Origin: a virus | DNA length: 46,863 bases | Direction: 5' to 3' (one strand) | IMG/VR virus record: IMGVR_UViG_3300023180_000107 | Span: 1 to 46,863 of that record | In this document: positions 21,977 to 36,355 of the stretch, piece after piece | Position numbering within the stretch: the first letter of the stretch is position 1 | Layout of the letters: each line of letters starts with the position of its first letter | The notes under the pieces: model-generated | Seen by the model: the letters and a program-made list of their open reading frames with translations, nothing else | Databases searched by the model: none | What the model was told of the DNA's origin: nothing | Program-made: the position numbers and the translations under genes

Positions 21977-24900
21977 TTAGTTTAATAGTGATCCAGCTGC
22001 ATTGTATACGTTGATCCTATAATATGTACCTTGTTGACCATCAAGTGTATCTGCATCAAGACCAGATCCTGCCCCATCTCTTGTTTTAATATCGGTAAAG
22101 ATCGTTGCACCGAAGTAAGAAGTTAATTGTGCAGAGTCGATTGCAAGATCTCTAGTAGATGCGATTGTACCACCACCTGTTAAACCAGTGCCTGCTGTGA
22201 TTGATACCGTCGAGTGATCGATATGCTCATCAGCTACGAATCCTGTTAGGTTATCGTGGTTAATAGAGCTTTCAAAATATGCTAAGAATTCAGCTGAATC
22301 GATAGCAAGGTCTCTTGTAGAAGCGATCGTACCGCCACCCGTTAAGCCTGTACCAGCGGTAATTGATACCGATGAGTGATCGATATGCTCATCAGCTACG
22401 AATCCAGAGAGGTTATCGTGATTAATTGAACCCTCAAAGTATGCTAAGAATTCAGCTGAGTCAATTGCAAGATCTCTGGTAGATGCGATTGTGCCGCCAC
22501 CTGTCAGACCTGTTCCTGCTGTGATCGACACTGATGTATGGTCAATGTGCTCATTTGCAACGAAACCAGAGAGGTTATCGTGGTTAATAGAGCCTTCGAA
22601 ATATGCTAGGAATTCTGCAGAGTCAATAGCAAGATCTCTAGTAGCTGCGATTGTACCACCGCCTGTTAGACCTGTTCCTGCTGTAATTGATACTGATGTA
22701 TGGTCAATATGCTCATTGGATACAAAGTTTGTAAGAGCATCGTGATCAATATTCGTTGCCGTAACTGCAGTTACCAGACCCTTACCATTAACAGTGATTG
22801 CTGGTACCTGTGATGAAGATCCGAATGATCCAACGTTACCGTTCACTGTTGCTAATGTAAGTACTAGATCAACAGGTGCTGAACCATTGAATGAAACATT
22901 TGGTGCTGTTGCATCACCCGAAGCAGAGAAGTTTCTACCAGTTGCAAGAGTTGTAGCTGTTGAAGCATTACCTGTGAGCGAACCAGTTACGTTACCAGTC
23001 ACATTACCTGATAAGTTACCTTCGAATGTAGTTGCTTTAACTACACCATATTGTGTACCAGCTGAATTTGGATCAATTGGTGCATCTGGTTCTGGATCGT
23101 ATCTGTTTAGGAATGTCCATTTATTTTCTGATACGTCGAAGTATAGACCAACGTGGGTGTATGCAGAATCGTTTCTGTTAGAGAAGAATCCTGTATCAAT
23201 ATCTGTTGCAGTAGCTGTGCCTGTCCATTTATCACCAACTGTGTGACCGGTTGTAGCACCAAAGTCGATCTCAATACCGTACGCACTGTCTAGTATCTGA
23301 GCAGCGCCTGTGATAGCAATACCCGTTGCTTCTGTACCGACAGATGAATCAAATCCCCATTCAAACGTATCAGGTGTTCCAGTAGCGTCAATCTTAACGA
23401 AGAATGACTTAGTTGCTTCATCGCCTGAGTAATGTCCAGAGTAGAATGCATCATCTAGGCCAGTTCCAACAAAGCTTGTACCAGCCTCACCAATCGTATC
23501 ACCAGCATTGAGGTACTGGAAGTTACCACCAATTTCTACATTTGCTGTAGAAGTAATGGTTTGTGTACCAGTAACATTTAAGTTACCGTCGATAGTTAAA
23601 TCACCACCGATGTGTGCAGCAGACTGAACTCTAAATCCAGCAACCGAATGGTTCTGCTGGTTGATAATAACTTTACCGTTATTAGGATCAGATTTAATAA
23701 CCCAACCGAGACACATCGGGAAGTTAGGATAAGCCGGGGCAGCATTCTGTAGTGCACCTGGTGTAAGGCCGGCGAAGAAGTTTTGACCTGCAGTAAGAGA
23801 GGATGTGTCAATGCCATCAATTACACCAGATACAACAATTTGTCCGTAAGAGTTATTTGGAATAGCTTCTGCTGAAAGACCCTGAACGTTATACTTAGCT
23901 GCGTCTGTTGCATCTGCTAGAGCAATTGTAGGAGATTCTCTGCCAGAATCGTTAACGAAGTTACCTGAGTAATAGAGTGGTTTACCTTTGGCAATTTCCA
24001 CGCCAGTGTTGTTGTACACCCTCTCAACTTCTTGCATACCAATTTCAATTGGATGATCGAAATCAGTATAATAGTTTAGATTCTTATGGAAAGGATCATA
24101 CCATAGAGCACCTTCTCTAAATCCAATATGACTATCTGCCCAACCAAGCTGGAACTGAATCTCACCAACGGTAGCTGAGTCTGCTTGGAAGCTTGTGATT
24201 GTAGCAGAATCTACTGTTAATTGACTAATATGACCAGTACCATAGTTTAGTGATACACCTGATATATTAGTTGCGATTGCAGAATCTGCGTTTAGTGCAT
24301 TTGTATTTAATGTATTATTATCAATAATACCGATATGTGCTGAATCTACAGATAATTGGCTAATCGTACCTGTTGTAGCATTTACTGTAGAATAGTTTGC
24401 TGACGTACCAGATATATTTGTAATCGAAGCAGAATCCGCCTGAAGTATTCCAAATCCGTTTATAATAGTCGGATAACTACCACCATCAGCAGTATTAATA
24501 GTAAAGGTAGTACTTGCAGAATCCCACGATGTGCTTGATACCCCAGCAACACTTACGGTTCCAATACTATCTACGAATCCTGATCCGTCAACTGTGACAA
24601 TAGGAACTAGTGATGCCGAACCATATACACCAGCAGTTACCGTTGTATTTGATCTAGTAAGTGTATGTGTATTCAGTGTTTGTATATGGGCTGAGTCTAC
24701 ATCAAGTTGACTAATTGTACCTGTTGTAGCATTTACTGTGCTATAATTTGCAGAGCTACCAGATACATTTGTTAATGATGCTGAGTCAGCATCAAGCGAA
24801 TTAGTTCTTAATGTATTGTTATCAATAATTCCGATGTGTGCAGAATCAACAGATAGTTGACTGATCGTGGCTGAATCCCCGAGCAGTGATCCGTAACTTG

Positions 24901-27900
24901 CAATACTACCAGAAATAATTTGAATATCTGCTGAGTCAGCTTCTAGATTAGTACTTGATACAGTAGTAGCACCTGTGAGTGAACCATACACCTTTGTACC
25001 GGTGCTAACTGTTTGAAGCCTAAGATCACCAGAGGAATCATTGATTTTTACACCATCATCCGCACCAGCTTGCAACCAAATTGGGTTACCATTATTTTTT
25101 GATGACAGATAGATGTCTTGTGCTTCAATGTAGATCCCACCGGTGGAATCTTTAATAACCAAATTAACAGGATTTCGGTTAATAATAGCATCATCGTTAT
25201 CACCGAATGCAAGTGATACGTTATCACCAAATCCTCTGATTGGTGTTGAAAATGATCCACCATCAACAGTATTAATTGTAAATACGCCAACTGATGAATC
25301 CCATGATGTACTTGATACACCAGCAACACTTACGGTTCCAATACTATCAACAAAACCTGAAGCATCAACTGTTACCACTGGAACAAGTGATGCTGAACCA
25401 TAAGCTCCTGCTATTACAGTTGTATTGGATCTTGATAAAGTATGGGTATTTAATGTTTGTACACGTGCGGAATCTGCATCAAATTGGCTAATATGACCAG
25501 TACCATAATTTAAAGTAGCACCAGAGATATCAGTTACAATAGCAGAATCAGCAGTAAGCGCTGCAGCATGTACAGTAGCGTAGTTAGAAGTAACACCAGA
25601 GATATCCGTAATAACTGCGGAATCTGCTGTCAGATTTGTTACTGTAGCAGAATCAGCTGTTACTGCACCTGATACATTTAATGCTTTATTTAATGCCCAG
25701 CGATCATCAGTAGAGGTATATGTTATAGTCGGTTTAGTACCGCCAGTGTATAATGCGCCACCAATAGTTAATCCCGCACCATCAATATCAACATTGTTTA
25801 CGGCTGAATCAGCGAGTACAATATTTTTATCATTTATAGTAACTTCTGTTGAATTAACAGTTGTTGTAGTACCTTGAACAGTTAGGTTACCAGCAATATA
25901 TGTGTTACCTGTACCCGTAATGTTTCCATTTACTGTTAGTCCAGCAGCGGTTAAAGTCGTAAAATTACCAGTACTATAATTTGCAGATGAGCCAGATACA
26001 TTAGTTATATTAGCTGAATCCGCATCCAAGGCATTCGTATTTAATGTATTATTATCAATTATGCCAATGTGCGCTGAGTCTGCAGAGAACTGACTAATTG
26101 TTCCAGTTGTGGCATTTACAGTTGTGTAGTTAGCAGATGTACCAGAGATATTAGTAACTGACGCCGAATCAGCAGTAAGTGCTGCAGCATGTGCAGTAGC
26201 GTAGTTAGAAGTAACACCGGAGATATCAGTTACAATAGCAGAATCTGCATTTAATGAATTTGTATTAATAGTATTATTATCGATAATACCAATATGTGCT
26301 GAGTCTACATCAAGCTGACTGATCGTACCTGTTGTAGCGTTTACTGAGCTGTAGTTTGCTGATGTACCTGATATATTTGTAACTACTGCAGAATCAGCAG
26401 TTAGATTTGTTACTGTAGCCGAATCAGCGTTCAACGTACCGGTAACGGTAGTACCAGTTAATGTAGTTTCTAATTTTTTAACACTTCCATAATATAGATC
26501 GACGCCTGCAAAAGGAGTAAATTCTGCAATTTTAGCACCACCGACATTATTTTTTATTAAGAAATGACCAGCACCATCAAGATCTAATTCAGTAGCCCCT
26601 GCTTCAATAACGGTTGTACCACCAGTGGTATGCCGTATCGATGCTTCATTAGCATCACCAAAGTATAATCTTTGATCGTCACCAAAACCATTAATAGTAG
26701 TTCTGAATATTCCTCCATCAGCGGTATTAATTACTAATTGCGCTGTTGAAGAATCCCATAATGTGCTACTAACGCCAGCGACTGATACTGTGCCGATACT
26801 GTCAACAAATCCTGAAGCGTCTAGAGTAACAATGGGAACAAGTGAAGCTGAGCCCCATGTTCCAGCATAACTTGTAGCACCTGAGCGAGTGATATTAGTA
26901 AATGTAGCAGAATCTGCGGTGACCGCACCATCAACATCAACTGCTCTATTGAAGTTAATTAAATCACCAGATGTTACGTACTTCATTTCCGGAGGTGTAG
27001 TAATACTTGCACCACCAAGTGTAATACCAGCACCATTAAGAGCAGTTAGGTCGGCTGCAGAATCTGCTAATGTAATATTCTTATCTGCGATATTAACTAC
27101 AGTTGAATTAACTGTTGTCGTTGTCCCATCAACCGTTAAATTTCCATGTACGGTAACCCCACTACTGAAATATGCAGAATTAAATGTAACGTTATCACTG
27201 ATACCAACTGGTTGTCCAATAGAAATAACCCCACCAGATGATTCGTATGTTACACCAGTACCAGCGACAAGATGTGCTCTTACTTCAGAAGCAGAAGGTC
27301 CTGTGTATGAGAAATTACCTGTAGCAGAATCGTAACTGAACGATCCGTCACCGCCTAAATCAAGTGCCTGGAAGTGTGCTCTTACTTCAGTTGCACTTGG
27401 ACCAGTATATGTAATATTACCAGTAGCAGAATCATAACTTAATGATCCATCCCCACCTTGATCAAGTACCTGGAAATATCCCCTTACCTGGGCTGTAGAT
27501 AGACCCGAATAGGTGAATGTGCCAGTAGCAGAATCATATGTAAATGTGCCATCCCCAGCTGCATCAATTGCTTGGAAATAACTTCTGATTGTTGCAGTTG
27601 ATACTGCATCACCAAGAGCAGAATCTACACGTGCCCTTGTGTAATATAAGTTATTACTTCCTTCAGCAAGGTCGTTTGTTGTATTACCTGCAAGACTTAA
27701 AGCAGCTGGATCACCAGATGTGGTCTTAACTGCAAAGCCACCATCTGATTCTTCAAGAGCAATAGTACCGAGCTGGATAGTTTGTCCAGAAAGATATAAC
27801 TTACGCCATTTATTAGTAGCACTACCAAGATCAAGTGCGCTGTCAGCATTAGGAATAAGACTGTGTGTAACTTGATCTGACGAATCAAGCATATTGATTC

Positions 27901-28192
27901 GAACATTACCATCACCACTAACGGTGAAGTGATCTGCATCAAATTTTGCAACACCGACAGAGGAATCTGTTGCATTATCTGCAGTAAAGGTAACGGTTCT
28001 ATTATCAACTACCCCAACCTTTGCAGTAAGAGGAGCTACGCCATCAAATGTAAGAATTTGTGCTGAACCGACTGATACTAAGCCTGTACCAGAGTCACCC
28101 GCAAAATTTAAATCACTACCACTTGCACGAACACTTCGTATAGGTGTTCCTACAATGACGCGTTTAACAATAGTTCTTTGAGCTCCGGCCAT
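21977..28192 (-). CDS. Very large tail fibre / adhesin (2071 residues)
   Basis: A repetitive fibre protein just upstream of the neck genes. The N-terminus (1-150) has LDLGSATNKWRKLYLSG (119-135), a motif common in phage fibre proteins. Three 34-residue repeats (203-304) follow. A long middle section is built on units containing DSAHIGIIDNNTL and ADSA...NISGTSANYS. A folded module at about 1355-1540 (ALWYDPFHKNLNYYTDF; ERVYNNTGVEIAKGKPLYYSG) comes next. Four 54-residue repeats near the C-terminus precede DADTLDGQQGTYYRI, and the protein ends VYNAAGSLLN. Such fibres bind the host surface. The C-terminal YNAAGSLLN echoes YDSDGTLLN in the protein encoded at 35288-36355. The assignment as fibre is firm; the place in the virion is inferred. 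Confidence 0.88.
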   Translation of the reverse strand: MAGAQRTIVKRVIVGTPIRSVRASGSDLNFAGDSGTGLVSVGSAQILTFDGVAPLTAKVGVVDNRTVTFTADNATDSSVGVAKFDADHFTVSGDGNVRINMLDSSDQVTHSLIPNADSALDLGSATNKWRKLYLSGQTIQLGTIALEESDGGFAVKTTSGDPAALSLAGNTTNDLAEGSNNLYYTRARVDSALGDAVSTATIRSYFQAIDAAGDGTFTYDSATGTFTYSGLSTAQVRGYFQVLDQGGDGSLSYDSATGNITYTGPSATEVRAHFQALDLGGDGSFSYDSATGNFSYTGPSASEVRAHLVAGTGVTYESSGGVISIGQPVGISDNVTFNSAYFSSGVTVHGNLTVDGTTTTVNSTVVNIADKNITLADSAADLTALNGAGITLGGASITTPPEMKYVTSGDLINFNRAVDVDGAVTADSATFTNITRSGATSYAGTWGSASLVPIVTLDASGFVDSIGTVSVAGVSSTLWDSSTAQLVINTADGGIFRTTINGFGDDQRLYFGDANEASIRHTTGGTTVIEAGATELDLDGAGHFLIKNNVGGAKIAEFTPFAGVDLYYGSVKKLETTLTGTTVTGTLNADSATVTNLTADSAVVTNISGTSANYSSVNATTGTISQLDVDSAHIGIIDNNTINTNSLNADSAIVTDISGVTSNYATAHAAALTADSASVTNISGTSANYTTVNATTGTISQFSADSAHIGIIDNNTLNTNALDADSANITNVSGSSANYSTGNFTTLTAAGLTVNGNITGTGNTYIAGNLTVQGTTTTVNSTEVTINDKNIVLADSAVNNVDIDGAGLTIGGALYTGGTKPTITYTSTDDRWALNKALNVSGAVTADSATVTNLTADSAVITDISGVTSNYATVHAAALTADSAIVTDISGATLNYGTGHISQFDADSARVQTLNTHTLSRSNTTVIAGAYGSASLVPVVTVDASGFVDSIGTVSVAGVSSTSWDSSVGVFTINTVDGGSFSTPIRGFGDNVSLAFGDNDDAIINRNPVNLVIKDSTGGIYIEAQDIYLSSKNNGNPIWLQAGADDGVKINDSSGDLRLQTVSTGTKVYGSLTGATTVSSTNLEADSADIQIISGSIASYGSLLGDSATISQLSVDSAHIGIIDNNTLRTNSLDADSASLTNVSGSSANYSTVNATTGTISQLDVDSAHIQTLNTHTLTRSNTTVTAGVYGSASLVPIVTVDGSGFVDSIGTVSVAGVSSTSWDSASTTFTINTADGGSYPTIINGFGILQADSASITNISGTSANYSTVNATTGTISQLSVDSAHIGIIDNNTLNTNALNADSAIATNISGVSLNYGTGHISQLTVDSATITSFQADSATVGEIQFQLGWADSHIGFREGALWYDPFHKNLNYYTDFDHPIEIGMQEVERVYNNTGVEIAKGKPLYYSGNFVNDSGRESPTIALADATDAAKYNVQGLSAEAIPNNSYGQIVVSGVIDGIDTSSLTAGQNFFAGLTPGALQNAAPAYPNFPMCLGWVIKSDPNNGKVIINQQNHSVAGFRVQSAAHIGGDLTIDGNLNVTGTQTITSTANVEIGGNFQYLNAGDTIGEAGTSFVGTGLDDAFYSGHYSGDEATKSFFVKIDATGTPDTFEWGFDSSVGTEATGIAITGAAQILDSAYGIEIDFGATTGHTVGDKWTGTATATDIDTGFFSNRNDSAYTHVGLYFDVSENKWTFLNRYDPEPDAPIDPNSAGTQYGVVKATTFEGNLSGNVTGNVTGSLTGNASTATTLATGRNFSASGDATAPNVSFNGSAPVDLVLTLATVNGNVGSFGSSSQVPAITVNGKGLVTAVTATNIDHDALTNFVSNEHIDHTSVSITAGTGLTGGGTIAATRDLAIDSAEFLAYFEGSINHDNLSGFVANEHIDHTSVSITAGTGLTGGGTIASTRDLAIDSAEFLAYFEGSINHDNLSGFVADEHIDHSSVSITAGTGLTGGGTIASTRDLAIDSAEFLAYFESSINHDNLTGFVADEHIDHSTVSITAGTGLTGGGTIASTRDLAIDSAQLTSYFGATIFTDIKTRDGAGSGLDADTLDGQQGTYYRINVYNAAGSLLN
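22097..22744 (-). repeat. Four tandem 162-bp repeats in the large fibre gene
   Basis: Four in-frame copies of a 54-residue unit beginning HDNL and containing EHIDHTSVSITAG, GTGLTGGGTIASTRDL and IDSAEFLAYFE. Corresponding bases recur at 162-base spacing (GGTTATCG at 22249, 22411 and 22573, with a variant near 22735). The copies are very similar at the DNA level, so copy number could change by recombination. Confidence 0.9.
27281..27586 (-). repeat. Three tandem 102-bp (34-residue) repeats in the large fibre gene
   Basis: Units such as RGYFQVLDQGGDGSL and SYDSATGNITYTGPSATEV, each 34 residues, at residues 203-304 of the fibre. Confidence 0.85.
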
Positions 28193-28609: not shown

Positions 28610-29377
28610 CTATTTATAATAACAAGAAAAGATGTTATCAGAATCCAAGAATAAATCTTTTGCCCCACCATTGAATACAGCTATTGTTGGTTCAGACATA
28701 TAATAGCCCTGAGTGGAACCATCAAACCTCTGACTTTTAACTTTGAATTTATATGCAGTACTTTGCCACGATCGGTCCTTGAGTAGTATTTCAGGGATAT
28801 TCGTAACAGGGTAATAGTCTTTTAGTATTTCAAGATACTCTAGTTTATCCCTGTGTAGGTTCCACAAATATCTGCACACACCTTTGTATTCATCTATAAT
28901 AATATATGGGTTTTCTTCAAAGTGCTCATAGATTTCGCGCAATTCAAATGAATTAAAAATCATAATAGATGAATTAACTTTAGTAAAGTTGTATCTTTGT
29001 TGTTTTATATCAACATCCATCATACGGGAATCGATACTTCCATAACAAATTTTTATTTTATGGGGGTTTACATTGCTAAAAAGATAGTCTATATTATTCT
29101 GTATTACTACATCCAAATCCAAAAAAAGTGTTCTACCCCCTTCACGGTACAGGTCAGGATTAAAAACACAAAGCTTTGGCCAGAAGCCATCAATACCACT
29201 TTCTACCTCATCTGAAATATCAACTGGATTAATCCCATCATCTAACCCATCTGGGATTTCCGTAAGACAATAAAAATCGAATGGTAAAGACAAATTCTTC
29301 CTTACCATTCTATAGAGTCTGTTAACAAATTCTGGCTCGTATTTGGTGCCAGTCTTGACACACACTACGTTAATCAT
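28610..29377 (-). CDS. Glycosyltransferase, GT-A type
   Basis: A 255-residue putative glycosyltransferase. It shows the GT-A hallmarks GFWPKLCVFNPDLY (64-77) and RTLFLDLDVVIQNNID with a D87-L-D89 metal/nucleotide-sugar motif, followed by KVNSSIMIFNS and a C-terminal FNGGAKD. It has no membrane segment, so it acts in the host cytoplasm. Its ATG overlaps the stop of the 2OG-like gene (ATGA). The substrate is unknown; lying among fibre genes, it may glycosylate virion proteins or a host surface precursor. The stretch around 29067 also holds a plus-strand promoter-like element. Confidence 0.85.
   Translation of the reverse strand: MINVVCVKTGTKYEPEFVNRLYRMVRKNLSLPFDFYCLTEIPDGLDDGINPVDISDEVESGIDGFWPKLCVFNPDLYREGGRTLFLDLDVVIQNNIDYLFSNVNPHKIKICYGSIDSRMMDVDIKQQRYNFTKVNSSIMIFNSFELREIYEHFEENPYIIIDEYKGVCRYLWNLHRDKLEYLEILKDYYPVTNIPEILLKDRSWQSTAYKFKVKSQRFDGSTQGYYMSEPTIAVFNGGAKDLFLDSDNIFSCYYK
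28611..28618 (-). promoter_or_regulatory. Second late-promoter-like TATAAATA box
   Basis: TATAAATA on the minus strand, overlapping the glycosyltransferase stop codon and 25 bases upstream of the first box. The pair may add strength, or only one copy may be used. Confidence 0.45.
29067..29095 (+). promoter_or_regulatory. Antisense promoter-like element inside the glycosyltransferase gene
   Basis: GGGGGTTTACA (TTTACA 29067-29072), 17 bases, TATATT (29090-29095) on the plus strand. It is the same combination as the promoters at 5544 and 9438, but here no plus-strand gene is recognisable downstream; a transcript would be antisense to the glycosyltransferase, the 2OG-like gene and further fibre genes. 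Confidence 0.4.
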
Positions 29378-30045
29378 AACGGATCTTCAATATCCTCAAT
29401 AATCTGTTCCCAAATGTTTTCAGCTTCAGCAAACACATATGCAACACTAATACGGAGACAGTCTGTTGATGCTGCATGGTAACAGAGCTTATCTGGTTGA
29501 TGGTACGCACCAAAGTAACCCATCTTACACTGCCATCCAGGTACATCCTGAACTCTCACACGTTCTTTCTTTTCAAGGTCCCAGTAATCAAACCATCCAT
29601 CCCCGTTTTCTGACCAAGAGAAAATAACATTGTACCCCGCAGCATTTGCATTATTATGCCAAGATATCCAGCCTCCAGGAGGATAGAGTGTAACAAGAGT
29701 ATTTCTTTTAGCAGAAAGTTCTGCCATTAATTCATTATTTAATTCTTGGGCTTTATTCCTGTACTCTTCTATAATTTTTAGATCCGTATTCCCGGTATCT
29801 CTTTCTGCCCCTGGCATCAAACCAGAATACGAGTGCATACTCTCTGGAAATCCGTCATGTTCTCTGCCTCGCGCAATAATTCTTTCAAGATAGTCATCCG
29901 CAAGCCACCTGTCTCTGGTGTGGTCTTTTGAATTTAAAGGTAGATCCTTTTGTAAGTTACCTTCTTGATACTTAGTAAGAACAAAATTTTTGAACTTATT
30001 CAAAGATTCCATTACCATCTCATTGTTGATTTTAATATCTCTCAT
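29374..30045 (-). CDS. Putative 2OG-Fe(II) oxygenase-like protein
   Basis: A 223-residue protein. The C-terminal half has the order of metal and substrate motifs expected in a 2OG oxygenase jelly roll: YPPGGWISWHNN (H130-N-N132 in place of the usual HxD), NVIFSWSENGDGWFDYWD, and CYHAASTDCLRIS (H190 and R198-x-S). The HxN in place of HxD makes activity less sure. The N-terminal half is helical and charged. It is coupled by ATGA overlaps to a glycosyltransferase on each side, which suggests a single pathway modifying one target. A cupin-like non-enzymatic fold is the alternative. Confidence 0.65.
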   Translation of the reverse strand: MRDIKINNEMVMESLNKFKNFVLTKYQEGNLQKDLPLNSKDHTRDRWLADDYLERIIARGREHDGFPESMHSYSGLMPGAERDTGNTDLKIIEEYRNKAQELNNELMAELSAKRNTLVTLYPPGGWISWHNNANAAGYNVIFSWSENGDGWFDYWDLEKKERVRVQDVPGWQCKMGYFGAYHQPDKLCYHAASTDCLRISVAYVFAEAENIWEQIIEDIEDPL

Positions 30046-30854
30046 ACTCTAAAGTCCTTATCTTTTTGAAGAGTTGCAGAATGATGGACTATAATTGGTG
30101 GATTGTTCACTAATCTGTGCTTACCAGCATTTGATCCAGTCTGGTTGAACTTAAAACTTGTAAACCAATTCCATCTGTAGTTATCTTCAAATTTACCTAT
30201 CTTAAGATCTTTGTACTTATCCATTTCGTTAGTCATCCACCACAACGTAAATTGATCCCATCTTAACATAGTGATGGGTGTTCCTTCATGCCACCATGGG
30301 GTTGAAGTTGGTTTATAACCTCTTCCTCTATAATGATTGTACCATTCTTCTTGTACTAGAAACATCTCCCACCAATCTTTCATAAAATCTCGAATGATTG
30401 GTTTTCTCATATCATATAGACAAACACCACCACATAGAACCAAATCAATAACTTTATCGGTACCTTCAATTGGGGCGTCAACCTCTACAAAAGAGGCTGC
30501 AGCAACCTTGTCTTTTGTAAGTCTTACAAATGAAAGATCATTATCACCAAGTTCATCCCATACATTTACAATATCTTCATGCTCACAAACAGAATCGGCA
30601 TCAACGTAGAATGTTATATCATACGGGCTGTTTGCCATACCATACAATTTACCACGAATATGTTCAGGACAATCCAGAATATTTTCGCAGTAATCTTTTG
30701 CTCTGTTATCAATCCATTCGGGGTGGGAAGTGAAGAAAGTAATTCTTGCATCTTCGTAGTGATCCAGGATAGATTCTACGAGATTCATAGCAGAGGAGTA
30801 GAATGCGGGTTTGTTTGTAGCTACAATTACAAATCCTTTAGACGGATTGCTCAT
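30042..30854 (-). CDS. Glycosyltransferase-like protein
   Basis: A 270-residue protein with a GT-A-like Rossmann start (GFVIVATNKPAFYSSAMNLVESILDHYEDARITFFT) and a DxD motif at DITFYVDADSV (D85-A-D87), followed by LVLCGGVCLYDMRKPIIRDFM. An upstream TTG (30860) extends the frame by two codons, but ATG 30854 is the more likely start. It overlaps the end of the preceding gene by 17 bases and is coupled by ATGA to the 2OG-like gene. It is less similar to classical families than the glycosyltransferase at 28610, but the DxD context supports the call. Acceptor unknown. Confidence 0.7.
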   Translation of the reverse strand: MSNPSKGFVIVATNKPAFYSSAMNLVESILDHYEDARITFFTSHPEWIDNRAKDYCENILDCPEHIRGKLYGMANSPYDITFYVDADSVCEHEDIVNVWDELGDNDLSFVRLTKDKVAAASFVEVDAPIEGTDKVIDLVLCGGVCLYDMRKPIIRDFMKDWWEMFLVQEEWYNHYRGRGYKPTSTPWWHEGTPITMLRWDQFTLWWMTNEMDKYKDLKIGKFEDNYRWNWFTSFKFNQTGSNAGKHRLVNNPPIIVHHSATLQKDKDFRV

Positions 30855-31287
30855 TCTCAATTTCTTCTTTCAATAACATAACAGTGTAGGCCAACAATTC
30901 ATAACGATTTTTGGACTTACGCATACGCGCCTTCATCTTCCTATTGGAAGAATTCTTAACGGAATCGATCTCAAATACCTCTAGCTTTGCATTAAAGAGT
31001 TCTTCTAGCTTTTGAGCTTGATCTCTTTCTTTCTTTTGCATAGCCTCAGCTTCACGACGTTTCCGGTGTCGCTCTTCGCGTTCTTGCGTATTTTTATCGA
31101 TTTTAGCAATATCGTTCTGCTTTAGAATTTCTTCCCAGTCAGGATTGATCTTACCACCGCTGGTGTACTTGAAGATTTTTGCAGTAGAAGAAGTTTCTTT
31201 ACCATCGTCATGCTCAATGACTAACTTACAGGTAATACGATCCTTCTGATAATTTTCCCAAAAGGGATGTTTCCATTGTTTTTTCAT
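30838..31287 (-). CDS. Small charged coiled-coil protein in the fibre region, function unknown
   Basis: A 149-residue protein with a short globular N-terminus (KKQWKHPFWENYQKDRITCKLVIEHDDG, then KIFKYTSGGKINPDWEEILKQND) and a lysine/arginine/glutamate-rich helical second half (EREERHRKRREAEAMQKKERDQAQKLEELF; MKARMRKSKNRYELLAYTVMLLKEEIENE). It follows the tetrapeptide-repeat fibre gene by 13 bases. A position directly after a fibre gene plus a charged helical build would suit a fibre assembly chaperone, but no family is recognised. Confidence 0.7.
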   Translation of the reverse strand: MKKQWKHPFWENYQKDRITCKLVIEHDDGKETSSTAKIFKYTSGGKINPDWEEILKQNDIAKIDKNTQEREERHRKRREAEAMQKKERDQAQKLEELFNAKLEVFEIDSVKNSSNRKMKARMRKSKNRYELLAYTVMLLKEEIENEQSV

Positions 31288-31300
31288 TTCACTTTCCTAA

Positions 31301-33805
31301 TTAAGCAATACGCATGTATAAGGTATAGGTCTCTATCGTTTCATTTGTTGCCTGAATGGTTTCTCCAAGGTAATCCCCAATATAGTTACCTATGTAGTCA
31401 CCAATGAAGTTACCGACGTAATCTCCAATGAAGTCTGAACTATATATGTCTGTGGATACACGTGTAAAATCTGTTTCATAGTTTCCAGTATAATCTGCAG
31501 TATATTCTATACCAGTATAATTACCCGTATAACCTTGATCGTATTGACCCACATAATCACCAGCGTACTGTATCAAACTGTTTCTAGTAAAGTTAGTTTC
31601 ATAATCACCGGTGTAGGAATCTGTCGAATTACGGGTAAAATCACCTAATGAATTTCGGGTTGATACACGTGTAAAATCTGTTTCATAGTTGCCAATGTAG
31701 TTACCAGTATAATCTGCAGCATAGTTACCAGTATAGTTCGCAGCAGACACCCGGGTAAAATCTGTTTCATAGTTACCAGTATAGTTCGCAGCAGATGCTC
31801 GCGTGTAGTTTACAGTAGATGTGCGCTGGCTATTTCGAGTAAAGTTAGAAACATAATTCCCAGTGTAGTTAGCAGCAGATGCTCGCGTGTAGTTTACAGT
31901 AGACGTACGTTGTGAGTTTCTAGTAAAGTCTGTAGCATAGTTACCAGTATAGTTTGCAGCGGATGCCCGGGTGTAGTTTACTTCAGAGGTACGTTGTGAG
32001 TTTCTAGTAAAGTTAGAAACATAATTCCCAGTGTAGTCACCGGTGTAGTCTCCCAGGAAGTTTGCTGTCGAAATGAGTGTAGAAACTCTAGTAAAGTTAG
32101 ACAGATAGTTACCTGCAAAGTTACCAGCGAAGTTACCAGTATACACTACTTGACGTCTAAAACTTCGCGCAAAGCCATTGTAGAAGGTGGAGAATTGCAC
32201 GCACGTCGCAAAATCCCGCACGAAGTCACGCACATAGTTACCTACATAGTCCGTTTCATAATTACCCGTAAAGTCACCAGTATAATCTACGGTAGAAGTT
32301 CGTTGACTGTTTCGGGTTGATACACGTGTAAAGTCTGTAGCATAGTTACCAGTATAGTCACCAAGGAAGTTACCACCTACATAGTCACCAGTATAGTTAG
32401 CTGCTGAAACTCGAGTAAAGTTTGCGGTATAATTACCCGTATAATCACCAAGGAAGTTACCACCTACATAGTCACCAGTATAGTTTGCAGCAGACGCTCG
32501 AGTAAAGTCTGTAGCATAGTTACCAGTATAGTCACCAAGGAAGTTACCACCTATATAATCACCAGTATAGTTTGCAGCAGACGCTCGAGTAAAGTTTGAA
32601 ATATAATTACCAGTATAGTTTGCTGCAGATTCTCTTGTGTAATTCTGATTGGATATTCTTGTTGAATCTCTTGTGAAATTACTTAGGTAATTTCCGGTGT
32701 AGTCACCAGTATAATCGGGATTATAGTTACCAGTATAGTTACCAGTAGATACTCGAGTAAAGTTGGATATGTAATCACCAATGAAGTCAGCAGCGTAATC
32801 CACTGCATAATTACCATCATACGTTCCTTCATAGACTGCAGTGAAAGCATCCGCAAAATTATTTGTAGAAACTCTAGTAAAGTTAGACAGATAGTTACCT
32901 GTATAATCACCTGTGTAGTTCAGTAGTGAGTTACGAGTAAAGTTCTGAGTAGAATCTCTTGTTGAATTACGTGTGCTATCTCGTGTGTAGTTTACATCAG
33001 CAGTTTGCTGTTTAGTATCAGTAGCAGTACCTTGTGATACCCAAGTACCACCAGATGGTGCACCTGCAGCAGAAGATCGAAGCTCATAGGTACCAATCCC
33101 AGTTGTCATGATACGGTTCTGAGCAACTTTACCTAAAGTGTATCCTATCTCACCAACAGTAGCTTCTTGGAAACCATCGTATGATTCACCAAGATCTGTC
33201 TCGTCTGTATAGATCCCTTTGATACGTACATACTTTGTAGTAGTTGGTGCAGTCATTGCAGTACGTTGCCAAATACTATAATTAACCGCCGTGCCATCAG
33301 TACGATTATCCGTAAAGACATTTGATAGTGCTGCTGTGTAATCCCCACTTGGTGCCGATGTTGCAAGTTTGTAAGTACCAGGATATTGGTAGGTGTGAAT
33401 ACGTGTATTCAATTCATCGACCAAAAGATTCATATCTGAATCTGCCATCTCTCTGGCTTGGAAACTACCGTCACTTTTAAATCCTAGTGGTCGACGGAAT
33501 CCATCAGAATCTACATAGGATGCTGTACCACTATTTTGATAGATGGTAGTATTCGTAGTAGTGGTAGTAAGAGATGAACCTGGATGGGTTCCAATAGCCT
33601 GATCAAACTGTGTGTCAGTATATGTACCAATAGCATCAGCACCTGCACCAGATGAATTAATACGTGATACTGAGGTGTTAGCAATAGTCGATAATTTTAA
33701 TCCGGCTCGGTATGCAAGGTAATCCAATTCATCTGAATCGAATTGTTGTAAGTCACCCCCAGACCCCTGGAGCTTAAGCGGGGTTTGTAAAGTAGATAAA
33801 GCCAT
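31301..33805 (-). CDS. Tetrapeptide-repeat fibre protein, long paralogue (834 residues)
   Basis: Residues 1-270 form a conserved head (DADAIG-type segment IGTYTDTQFDQAIGTHP at 59-75, TTTTTNTTIYQNSGTA at 80-95, STGIGTYELRSS-like segment near 234-245). From about 272 to 818 the protein is a nearly unbroken four-residue repeat in which Tyr, Phe or Ser appears every fourth position (YTGN, YATD, FTRA, SAAN and variants). A non-repeat island (DFATCVQFSTFYNGF, then RSFRRQVVYTGNF, 531-559) interrupts it. The C-terminus ETIQATNETIETYTLYMRIA is shared with the neighbour at 33805-35277. The regular repeat points to a beta-solenoid fibre shaft. It is coupled to the preceding paralogue by TAATG. Confidence 0.85.
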   Translation of the reverse strand: MALSTLQTPLKLQGSGGDLQQFDSDELDYLAYRAGLKLSTIANTSVSRINSSGAGADAIGTYTDTQFDQAIGTHPGSSLTTTTTNTTIYQNSGTASYVDSDGFRRPLGFKSDGSFQAREMADSDMNLLVDELNTRIHTYQYPGTYKLATSAPSGDYTAALSNVFTDNRTDGTAVNYSIWQRTAMTAPTTTKYVRIKGIYTDETDLGESYDGFQEATVGEIGYTLGKVAQNRIMTTGIGTYELRSSAAGAPSGGTWVSQGTATDTKQQTADVNYTRDSTRNSTRDSTQNFTRNSLLNYTGDYTGNYLSNFTRVSTNNFADAFTAVYEGTYDGNYAVDYAADFIGDYISNFTRVSTGNYTGNYNPDYTGDYTGNYLSNFTRDSTRISNQNYTRESAANYTGNYISNFTRASAANYTGDYIGGNFLGDYTGNYATDFTRASAANYTGDYVGGNFLGDYTGNYTANFTRVSAANYTGDYVGGNFLGDYTGNYATDFTRVSTRNSQRTSTVDYTGDFTGNYETDYVGNYVRDFVRDFATCVQFSTFYNGFARSFRRQVVYTGNFAGNFAGNYLSNFTRVSTLISTANFLGDYTGDYTGNYVSNFTRNSQRTSEVNYTRASAANYTGNYATDFTRNSQRTSTVNYTRASAANYTGNYVSNFTRNSQRTSTVNYTRASAANYTGNYETDFTRVSAANYTGNYAADYTGNYIGNYETDFTRVSTRNSLGDFTRNSTDSYTGDYETNFTRNSLIQYAGDYVGQYDQGYTGNYTGIEYTADYTGNYETDFTRVSTDIYSSDFIGDYVGNFIGDYIGNYIGDYLGETIQATNETIETYTLYMRIA
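31350..32995 (-). repeat. 12-base / four-residue repeat tract in the long fibre paralogue
   Basis: About 130 imperfect copies of a four-residue unit [Y/F/S]-x-x-[N/D/A/V]. Higher-order blocks are visible, such as the near-identical segments ANYTGDYVGGNFLGDYTGNY at about 412, 440 and 469, and NSQRTSTVNYTRASAANYTG copies near the middle, showing recent DNA duplication. Confidence 0.85.
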
Positions 33806-35277
33806 TATGCAGTCCTAACATATAACGTATATGTTTCAATAGTTTCGTTTGACGATTGGATTGTCTCTCCAGCGTAATCACCTATATAGTTACCTAAGTA
33901 ATCTCCAATAAAGTTACCTACATAGTCACCGGTATAATCTCCAGTGTATTCATTTTGATATGCTGCATCATACTGTCCAACGTACGTAATAGGACCAACA
34001 TAGTTTGGTGTATAATCACCAGCATAATCACCTTCATAATTACTTATATAGTTACCAATAAAATCGCCAGTGTATTCGCCAAGATAATCCGTGGAATAAT
34101 CAGCAGGACCTTCGTAATCCCCTACGAAATCACGCTCAAAGTTACCAGTATACACTACTTGACGCCTATAAGCTTGGGCTTCAAAGCCATTGAAAAAGTC
34201 GCTGAAGCTTACGCACGTCGCAAAATCTCTGACGAAGTTTCTCAGATAGTTACCAAGGTAAGTATCCACACCTGTGTATGTAGCTACATAGTTACCAGTA
34301 TAGGTGTCATCTGTATAGTTACCCTCGAAGTCAGCACCAGAATACGTTCCGGCATATTCCCCTACATAATCAGCAGCAATGTATTGAGTGGTACCAACAT
34401 AATCACCATCATACACGGCCCCATAATTAGAAACGTAATTAGATTGACTTATTCTTGTAAAGTTCTGAGTTGAATCTCTAGTTGAAATTCTTGTACTGTC
34501 TCTTGTATAATTCTGATCAGCAGTTTGTTGTTTTGTGTCTGTTGCAGTCCCTTTAGCCACCCATGTGCCAGGATCTGTCGGCGCGCCATCTGCAGAACTA
34601 CGTAACTGATACGTACCAATACCAGTGGACATAATACGTGTTTTTGCACGCTGGCCAAACGTTGCCTGCATTTCTACGGTACTCATACGTTGCAGATTTT
34701 TAGTACCTTCAACAAGTCTCACAGGCTTTACCACGGTTGGTGGCGTCATAGCCTGACGTTTCCAAATAGTGTAATCTACTGAAGTACCATCAGTTCTTGT
34801 ATCTGTGAATACATTTGCAATGTGTGCCGAGTAATCTGCGCTCGGTGCAGATGTAGCAAGTCTGTAAGTGCCAGGATAATCACCAGCAAATATTGTGAGT
34901 AGTAGACGATCAACCACAGCGTTAAGCTGCGTGTCATTCAGTGCTTCAATCTCACCAGGATCTTGATCCCAAAGTACAGGTTTAGAAAATGGTGGATCTT
35001 CTGGTGCTGTACCAGTGTTTTGATAGATTGTAGTATTTGTAGTAGTTGTGGTGAAAGATGAAGCAGGATGTGTGCCTACAGCTTGATCGAACTTCGTATT
35101 CGTATAGGTACCGACAACATTCCCGGTACCGGTACTGAGAGAAGCAACCTTTGATTGACCAGCTTGCGCTAGTTGGATACCAGCCTGGTATGCTGCATAA
35201 TTTTCTTCTGTGGCTGTAATTTTTTTAAGATTACCATCACCGTCGTCGATCTTAAGAAGGGCGTCAATAATTGCCAT
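33805..35277 (-). CDS. Tetrapeptide-repeat fibre protein, short paralogue (490 residues)
   Basis: Paralogue of the following 834-residue gene. The head (1-255) shares GTYTNTKFDQAVGTHP (56-71), TTTTTNTTIYQNTGTAP, YPGTYRLATSAPS, and STGIGTYQLRSSADGAP. Residues 257-470 are the four-residue repeat (YVGN, FIGD, YLGN, YIGD and the like), but with more irregular five- and six-residue steps than in the long copy. The same island is present (FVRDFATCVSFSDFFNGF, then AYRRQVVYTGNF, 347-380). The C-terminus ETIQSSNETIETYTLYVRTA is nearly identical to its neighbour. It is probably a fibre shaft made with, or alternative to, the long one. Confidence 0.85.
   Translation of the reverse strand: MAIIDALLKIDDGDGNLKKITATEENYAAYQAGIQLAQAGQSKVASLSTGTGNVVGTYTNTKFDQAVGTHPASSFTTTTTNTTIYQNTGTAPEDPPFSKPVLWDQDPGEIEALNDTQLNAVVDRLLLTIFAGDYPGTYRLATSAPSADYSAHIANVFTDTRTDGTSVDYTIWKRQAMTPPTVVKPVRLVEGTKNLQRMSTVEMQATFGQRAKTRIMSTGIGTYQLRSSADGAPTDPGTWVAKGTATDTKQQTADQNYTRDSTRISTRDSTQNFTRISQSNYVSNYGAVYDGDYVGTTQYIAADYVGEYAGTYSGADFEGNYTDDTYTGNYVATYTGVDTYLGNYLRNFVRDFATCVSFSDFFNGFEAQAYRRQVVYTGNFERDFVGDYEGPADYSTDYLGEYTGDFIGNYISNYEGDYAGDYTPNYVGPITYVGQYDAAYQNEYTGDYTGDYVGNFIGDYLGNYIGDYAGETIQSSNETIETYTLYVRTA
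33867..34509 (-). repeat. 12-base / four-residue repeat tract in the short fibre paralogue
   Basis: About 50 units with an aromatic residue at every fourth position, with the shared island (about 34138-34245) within it. Confidence 0.8.
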
Positions 35278-35287
35278 GATCTGTCCC

Positions 35288-36355
35288 TTAGTTTAATAGT
35301 GTACCATCTGAATCATATATATTTGGAATTCTATTATATGTTTCATTAATAGCAGCCACTATGTTTGATTTTGCTGTTGTTACTAATGAATTAAGATCCC
35401 CAACTGGATTTGTTGAGACATCGGAATCAAGGAGATCAACAGTAGCTTTCAGTTCATTGATCGCCCCAACTAGTGACGATTTAACACTTGTAGTCAGCGA
35501 TGTTAATGTACCAATATCAGAATCTAGTTCATTGATAGCACTTCTAGCTTTTGTTGCAGTTGTCGTAAGTGTGGCTCTACCAACTAAGTTATTGAAATCT
35601 GTATCATTCGAATCTAATCTACTATCTAATTCATTAATAGCAGCCTTGATTGTAGTAGCAGTAGTGGCCAGGCCAACTTCCCCAATTGAATCGTGAATTT
35701 CGTTGATAGCTGCTGTCAAATTAGATGCGGTAGTATTAAGAGACATACTACCAATATCAGCATCTAATTCATTAATTGCTACGACAAGGTTTTGGTCTGC
35801 AGCAGTCGTTAAGCTAGACCTGTTACCAATATCAGAATCTAGTTCATTAATAGCAGTAACGAGATTCGAAGTAGTTGGCGTTGTAAGTGCGGTATGATCA
35901 CCAAGTTCTGTTCTTAATTCACGTAATGCTGCAGAAATATCAGTAGCTGTAAGACCTGTAAGGGTCATATTACCGATATCAGTTTCGTGCTCGTTAATAG
36001 CCCCTTTGATTGTAGTAGCTGCTGTTGATAAGGCAACCTCACCAATTGAATCGTGAAGTTCATTAATAGCGCCTTTGATAGTAGTGGAGGTAGTGTTAAG
36101 TCCTACCTCGCCGATAGAATCATGAAGTTCATTAATAGCGGCAGTAAGTGTCTTTGCAGTAGTATTTAAGTTAGTGGCCGGTCTAGCACCAATATCAGAG
36201 TCAAGCTCATTAACAGCCCCAACTAGATCAGAGTCAGCGCCTGTAGTATCGCCAGTCGTAAGGAGAGCAATATCACCAATTCCGTTCTCATGTTGATTTA
36301 ATTGATCAACAAGATTTCGGAAGGTTGATGACAGTGATACGTATGATTTTGCCAT
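35288..36355 (-). CDS. Repeat-rich fibre-like structural protein (355 residues)
   Basis: About a dozen imperfect units of roughly 25-30 residues ending in AINELDSDIG or AINELHDSIGE, separated by a short LTT...TTAxxL linker, after a short helical N-terminus (SLSSTFRNLVDQLNQHENGIGDIALL). The units suggest alternating short helices in an extended trimeric fibre. It ends IYDSDGTLLN, very like the VYNAAGSLLN end of the 2071-residue fibre. It is coupled by TAATG to the small gene before it and precedes the tetrapeptide-repeat fibre genes. No enzymatic motif. Confidence 0.8.
   Translation of the reverse strand: MAKSYVSLSSTFRNLVDQLNQHENGIGDIALLTTGDTTGADSDLVGAVNELDSDIGARPATNLNTTAKTLTAAINELHDSIGEVGLNTTSTTIKGAINELHDSIGEVALSTAATTIKGAINEHETDIGNMTLTGLTATDISAALRELRTELGDHTALTTPTTSNLVTAINELDSDIGNRSSLTTAADQNLVVAINELDADIGSMSLNTTASNLTAAINEIHDSIGEVGLATTATTIKAAINELDSRLDSNDTDFNNLVGRATLTTTATKARSAINELDSDIGTLTSLTTSVKSSLVGAINELKATVDLLDSDVSTNPVGDLNSLVTTAKSNIVAAINETYNRIPNIYDSDGTLLN

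Follow-up and report, generated by a model that had tools for sequence, protein, structure and literature searches.

Two adjacent genes on the minus strand of the IMG/VR virus record IMGVR_UViG_3300023180_000107 (positions 1 to 46,863; this whole 46,863-nucleotide stretch is the window) encode paralogous proteins, here termed S (short) and L (long), which very probably form very long antiparallel β-hairpins, with a variable tip at the centre and two arms paired in a fixed register. As read from the sequences, insertion of a four-residue repeat into the third module of an N-terminal body, the central tip, the complementarity of the arms, its register and the matched expansion of both arms are established; the pairing itself would be β-sheet hydrogen bonding, either within one chain or between the chains of an oligomer. 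The two open reading frames (ORFs) share one base (33805):

33805-35277, minus strand: short paralogue S, ORF of 490 amino acids (aa)
31301-33805, minus strand: long paralogue L, ORF of 834 aa

Four-residue repeat and central tip

The repeat unit of S and L has the consensus [Y/F/S/R]-[T/V/A/S/I]-[G/R/S]-[N/T/D]. Pairs of Phe, Tyr, Trp or Ser at a lag of four residues number 128 in the repeat region of L versus 39 ± 5 in shuffles, and 42 in that of S versus 16 ± 3, while Viterbi segmentation with a five-state model assigns 517 residues (~129 units) of L and 178 (~45 units) of S to the repeat. Pooled over 7241 units of the family, position 1 is Tyr (47%), Phe (29%), Arg (13%) or Ser (12%), position 2 is Thr, Val, Ala, Ser or Ile, position 3 is mainly Gly (39%), Arg (33%) or Ser (10%), and position 4 Asn (37%), Thr (19%) or Asp (18%). 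A preliminary description of this DNA had recognized a paralogous pair of four-residue-repeat proteins with about 130 and about 50 units, which the ORFs, the lag-4 test and the segmentation bear out. The aromatic or Ser residue that it placed at every fourth position is confirmed, with Arg as a common further option in the relatives. Its wording "strictly periodic" is slightly overstated: the period of four is strong, but in L it is broken by four slips of 1-2 residues and by a 21-residue gap exactly mid-repeat, and S has more slips than L and a 22-residue break at its middle. Two further parts had escaped it, a non-repeat N-terminal body of 255-270 residues and a conserved C-terminus of 20 residues.

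The central breaks divide each repeat region into an ascending arm, a tip and a descending arm:

34219..34512, minus strand: S ascending arm, residues 256-353 (98 aa; Viterbi segmentation)
34153..34218, minus strand: S tip, residues 354-375 (TCVSFSDFFNGFEAQAYRRQVV; central non-repeat insert, tip motif shared with L)
33868..34152, minus strand: S descending arm, residues 376-470 (95 aa; Viterbi segmentation)
32207..32992, minus strand: L ascending arm, residues 272-533 (262 aa; 1-residue bulges at 419, 448 and 477; segmentation and pairing alignment)
32144..32206, minus strand: L tip, residues 534-554 (TCVQFSTFYNGFARSFRRQVV; central non-repeat insert)
31364..32143, minus strand: L descending arm, residues 555-814 (260 aa; 2-residue bulge at 766-767; segmentation and pairing alignment)

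A chain that goes out and back must have its turn at the centre. The segmented lengths of arm, tip and arm are 98/22/95 in S and 262/21/260 in L, and near-equal arms recur in relatives (139/105/139, 194/163/197, 402/88/404, 349/48/351, 55/29/56 and 43/33/44). Of 52 non-redundant complete proteins, 35 have their largest insert no more than 5% away from the midpoint, where 10% of proteins would be expected (p = 4e-23), and slips may be mirrored as well, as at locus L093 (89-2-48/105/48-2-89). S and L have a tip motif in common despite a nearly threefold difference in arm length; the tips of relatives are highly variable and range from 13 to more than 200 residues, and the tips or inserted domains of five relatives gave no Pfam match. 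Two members (L064 and L066) have very short arms (20/21) and long tips with a six-residue repeat (NYAGPT).

Complementarity between the arms

With their base ends taken as fixed points, the arms were compared residue by residue in the antiparallel sense. Mutual information between the arms of one protein exceeds the coupling between proteins and peaks at a single register, in which position 1 lies opposite 1, 3 opposite 3, and 2 opposite 4. At position 1, Y:Y (382 versus 266 expected), R:F (147 versus 50) and F:R (87 versus 24) are enriched, and R:R (0 versus 13) and R:Y (7 versus 78) are avoided; at position 3, R:G (326 versus 205), G:R (197 versus 111) and S:R (116 versus 47) are enriched, and R:R (24 versus 140) and G:G (78 versus 162) are avoided. 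Overall, the code favours Y:Y, F:R or F:S, and G:R, and avoids R:R, G:G and S:S. With leave-one-out scoring, 25 of 41 proteins chose the same register among nine, and in several long proteins a score of ~+0.5 in register drops to between -0.6 and -0.9 on a shift of one unit; since the score collapses within one unit, a regional trend in composition does not account for it.

Bulge-tolerant alignments of the arms, scored against unit-shuffled arms, gave z > 3 in 32 of 54 proteins, with z = 33 in the protein of phage C48C1 (arms of 1032 and 1063 residues, inserted domains removed) and z = 20 at locus L091. For L of the window z is 7.7, observed and shuffled arms having been handled alike. A matrix built without the near relatives of L scores its arms at +16.7 in register and at -1.5 or lower at all shifts of 4-16 residues; the alignment was picked by maximizing pairing, so this shift test is a check of register and carries no independent P value. 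In the same alignment, R:G or G:R occurs 33 times and R:R never at position 3, and Ser opposite Tyr or Phe 32 times and S:S never at position 1.

Both arms of L also carry tandem DNA arrays, and these lie opposite each other:

32328..32619, minus strand: 87-bp array of 3.4 copies in the ascending arm, encoding a 29-aa block ending YVGGNFLGDYT (TRF; DNA identity between copies 0.85-0.91)
31755..32037, minus strand: 84-bp array of 3.4 copies in the descending arm, opposite the 87-bp array, encoding the 28-aa block NSQRTSTVNYTRASAANYTGNY....FTR (TRF and pairing alignment; DNA identity between copies 0.81-0.82)

The two units differ in sequence, their copy numbers match between the arms (3 and 3), and every ascending copy has one extra codon, which we read as a one-residue bulge. 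In a relative (L004), five ascending NFLGD copies stand opposite five descending QRTSTV copies, and the single copy that lacks the bulge faces a partner altered to correspond. Two separate arrays have thus expanded together, and selection on pairing accounts for this. Tandem arrays and low confidence in structure prediction might also be expected of a low-complexity or disordered filler generated by DNA slippage, a reading of negligible probability: residue-level complementarity, and matched copy numbers in arrays of different sequence, go beyond slippage alone.

The N-terminal body and the insertion point

Every family member combines a body of ~255-270 residues with the repeat and with the C-terminal motif FxGNYxGxTIxxxxETIETYTLYVRxA. 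In S and L the body and the C-terminal strand are:

34513..35277, minus strand: S N-terminal body, residues 1-255, comprising modules M1, M2 and M3 up to strand A (family alignment, AlphaFold 2 (AF2) and hhalign)
33808..33867, minus strand: S C-terminal strand, residues 471-490 (ETIQSSNETIETYTLYVRTA), strand B of module 3 (predicted local distance difference test score (pLDDT) and hhalign)
32993..33805, minus strand: L N-terminal body, residues 1-271, three modules (family alignment and hhalign)
31304..31363, minus strand: L C-terminal strand, residues 815-834 (ETIQATNETIETYTLYMRIA), strand B of module 3 (C-terminal motif and hhalign)

The body consists of three tandem copies of an uncharacterized α/β module, of which M2 and M3 are homologous (hhalign probability 95.6, E = 4e-9) and M1 is more distant from M2 (probability 63, weak). 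M2 ends with strand A, a short loop and strand B (VDYTIWKR), and in M3 the repeat follows directly after strand A (TWVAKGTATDTK). The hhalign score of M2 against M3 rises from 46.0 for M3 alone to 59.6 (E = 3e-11) when the C-terminal 17 residues of the protein are appended, compared with 51.5 for the next 17 residues and at most 54.3 in 30 column shuffles of the C-terminus. The first repeat residues thus also align to strand B, but the C-terminus fits better, and because it scores best as strand B of M3 the repeat region is taken as an insert in the M3 hairpin loop. From these alignments, the C-terminus (ETIETYTLYVRxA) is best read as completing module 3, with both ends of the repeat attached there. 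The AF2 model of S has pLDDT mostly above 90 in the body; it falls at the N-terminal edge of the repeat from 91 (241-250) to 38 (261-270) and at the C-terminal edge from 95 (481-490) to 46 (461-470), and long strands are predicted at 239-269 and 456-488.

The body profile has no Pfam match (0 of 14 members) and two stray weak matches in PHROGs (E = 0.03-0.09). Whole proteins and the repeat profile matched nothing in Pfam or PHROGs, sequence searches of the PDB with whole proteins, the body profile and the repeat profile gave no match, and Foldseek with the AF2 model of S found none at E < 1 in the PDB or BFVD.

This topology bears on two other folds. The C-terminal β-helix of T4 gp5 has an octapeptide repeat and three intertwined chains that form a triangular prism with the C-terminus at its pointed far end (PMC3004832). 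S and L would share with gp5 a fibrous β structure with short Gly-containing repeats, and [VL]TGN four-mers, as in cyanophage S-RIM2, have a weak phmmer resemblance to gp5. Against a conventional N-to-C trimeric fibre of this kind, in S and L the C-terminus is part of the N-terminal module, the tip is central, and the repeat unit is four residues with odd-unit indels instead of eight, so that neither the octapeptide nor the distal C-terminus is found; we consider such a fibre very unlikely. S-RIM2 itself entered the searches as a match and was rejected, being a different fibre; its structural protein SWTG_00067 (L023:4300-10038) has its [VL]TGN tetrapeptide repeat near the C-terminus.

The preliminary description had proposed "a different solenoid or a new fibrous fold". 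A β-solenoid with four-residue faces would suit the strong period of four, Gly and Asn at positions 3-4 as possible corners, and the tolerance of single four-residue indels, and a short period is also typical of pentapeptide and hexapeptide β-solenoids. S and L differ from these in the period itself, in their hairpin topology and in their cross-arm code, and neither a constant number of residues per turn nor stacked coils were found. Spacings of 2, 3 and 6 units gave mixed correlations, the observed indels include lengths of 1, 5 and 7 units, and indel lengths in multiples of 8 or 12 were not found in the repeats; we dropped a fixed number of units per turn, as patterning along the arms explains these mixed signals better. 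AF2, run on the monomer with the available alignments, formed no solenoid, the repeat itself receiving low pLDDT. Together with the mirror-symmetric arms, their antiparallel complementarity and the attachment of both repeat ends to one module, these results make a solenoid extremely unlikely and favour the other half of that proposal, a new fibrous fold.

Fibre model, relatives and significance

In the hairpin model, the three-module body would be the base that anchors the protein to the virion, and the repeat would form the loop between strands A and B of module 3. The ascending arm would leave the base as one very long β-strand (98 residues in S, 262 in L), and the chain would turn at the short, variable tip in mid-sequence and return as an antiparallel strand to the module where it started. 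Side chains on one face would provide the code, 1 against 1 (Tyr:Tyr, Phe:Arg, Phe or Tyr:Ser) and 3 against 3 (Gly:Arg, Ser:Arg), so that large residues face small or stackable ones; Arg lying across Gly between aromatics may create a cation-π ladder along that face. The paired arms would make a stiff β-ribbon, alone or as one of three in a trimeric needle, with the tip as the part likeliest to contact the host. At 3.3 Å per residue the fibres would be ~32 nm long for S, ~86 nm for L and up to ~340 nm for C48C1.

Phage fibres are usually trimeric, and the T4 gp37 needle, which is non-repetitive and binds iron, is the closest point of comparison; its course, reportedly described by Bartual et al. 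in 2010, is said to run out and back, the middle of the sequence forming the head and the C-terminus returning to the collar. The needle is antiparallel and six-stranded (PMC9659904) and measures ~15 nm by 2.5 nm (PMC3004832). By inference from sequence, S and L share with gp37 the out-and-back strands, the mid-sequence tip and both ends at the base; unlike gp37, they are far longer and repetitive, have another base module, and carry a pairing code, none being known in gp37. We do not assign them to the gp37 type, because neither body nor repeat has a sequence match in the PDB and S and L were modelled as monomers only. A trimer in which each ascending strand pairs with a descending strand from an adjacent subunit, so that the needle has six strands like the gp37 tip, has a chance only a little short of even. 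It draws on the same sequence evidence, since identical chains give an identical register, and a lone two-stranded ribbon would expose both its faces. The tests made do not tell pairing within a chain from pairing between chains, and no solved structure, that of gp37 among them, matches S or L in sequence.

Several observations weigh against the hairpin reading as a whole. AF2 gives pLDDT below ~45 across most of the repeat, and the 276 C-terminal residues of L (559-834), modelled with the family alignment, reach 30. S alone has no significant complementarity (z ~1); nearly all its units are Y-x-G, which makes it uninformative on pairing, and what supports a hairpin in S is limited to equal arms and shared architecture. 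The largest insert is off-centre in 17 of the 52 relatives. In C48C1 and L091 the cause is the presence of entire domains within a single arm, and not all of the others are accounted for (e.g. L076, L081, L092 and L032). Location on the virion and host binding are proposed from gene position and by analogy.

Two IMG/VR scans yielded ~90 loci with the family, and the body family is encoded in about 200 IMG/VR stretches. Of 94 loci examined, 53 have two copies arranged head to tail, and many of the remainder are truncated by a contig end or the flank limit. The sole full-length relative found among annotated phages is WJE88074.1 of phage C48C1 (Kyanoviridae, OQ984149.1), which shares the N-terminal body, repeat, C-terminal strand and paired arms with S and L, and differs from them as a single 3347-aa gene with inserted domains and arms of ~1030 and 1060 residues around the tip. 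Several globular domains of ~115-250 aa, mainly in its descending arm (L001:12007-22050), look like fibre decorations. Bacterial and archaeal genome contigs held no relative, and a match on a Lactococcus plasmid, located on the strand opposite an annotated gene, was discarded as artefactual. At loci L006 and L012 the long copy is split mid-repeat by a stop or frameshift, which may be an assembly error in repetitive DNA or real.

Around S and L lie genes for baseplate wedge proteins, a DUF4815 protein, neck, sheath, terminase, portal and major head protein, and no tRNAs; the wedge genes are upstream of the pair and an LtfC-like/L-shaped fibre assembly gene is downstream. S and L thus sit in the tail and baseplate block beside fibre and assembly genes, and are in all likelihood tail-fibre-like structural proteins of a T4-like marine myovirus. 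S is adjoined by one further gene of this kind:

35288-36355, minus strand: 355-aa tail-fibre-like protein (phrog_25848)

This protein has another repeat of roughly 25 residues (..AINELDSDIG..). A 2071-aa protein (21977-28192, minus strand), nearly without database match apart from one weak PHROG match and weak EF-hand scores, is probably another tail fibre or adhesin. Three small genes soon past the fibre genes (28610-30860, minus strand) could serve fibre modification; one is glycosyltransferase-like (phrog_1962), and the other two, which have no Pfam match, resemble by eye a 2-oxoglutarate oxygenase and a nucleotide-sugar transferase.

We incline, by a modest measure, to regard these proteins as a new class of fibrous protein, a β-ribbon hairpin with arms of up to ~1000 residues and a base-pair-like code that fixes the register and lets both arms expand in a matched way. 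No giant β-hairpin fibre was found described in the open-access literature, and we know of no described protein with such a pairing code, nor was one found there. If the model is true, the ~1000 residues per arm in C48C1 would rank with the longest antiparallel pairings of strands put forward for any protein, with long-range register encoded in a readable side-chain code of few letters. Register-setting in long β-strands would then be testable by swaps of paired residues, and the code would suggest a design rule for rigid fibres of chosen length. The body family is widespread in IMG/VR and has no Pfam or PHROG entry, and in this unannotated marine phage fibre the variable tip would be encoded in the middle of the gene rather than at its end, a point of consequence when host range is to be read from sequence.

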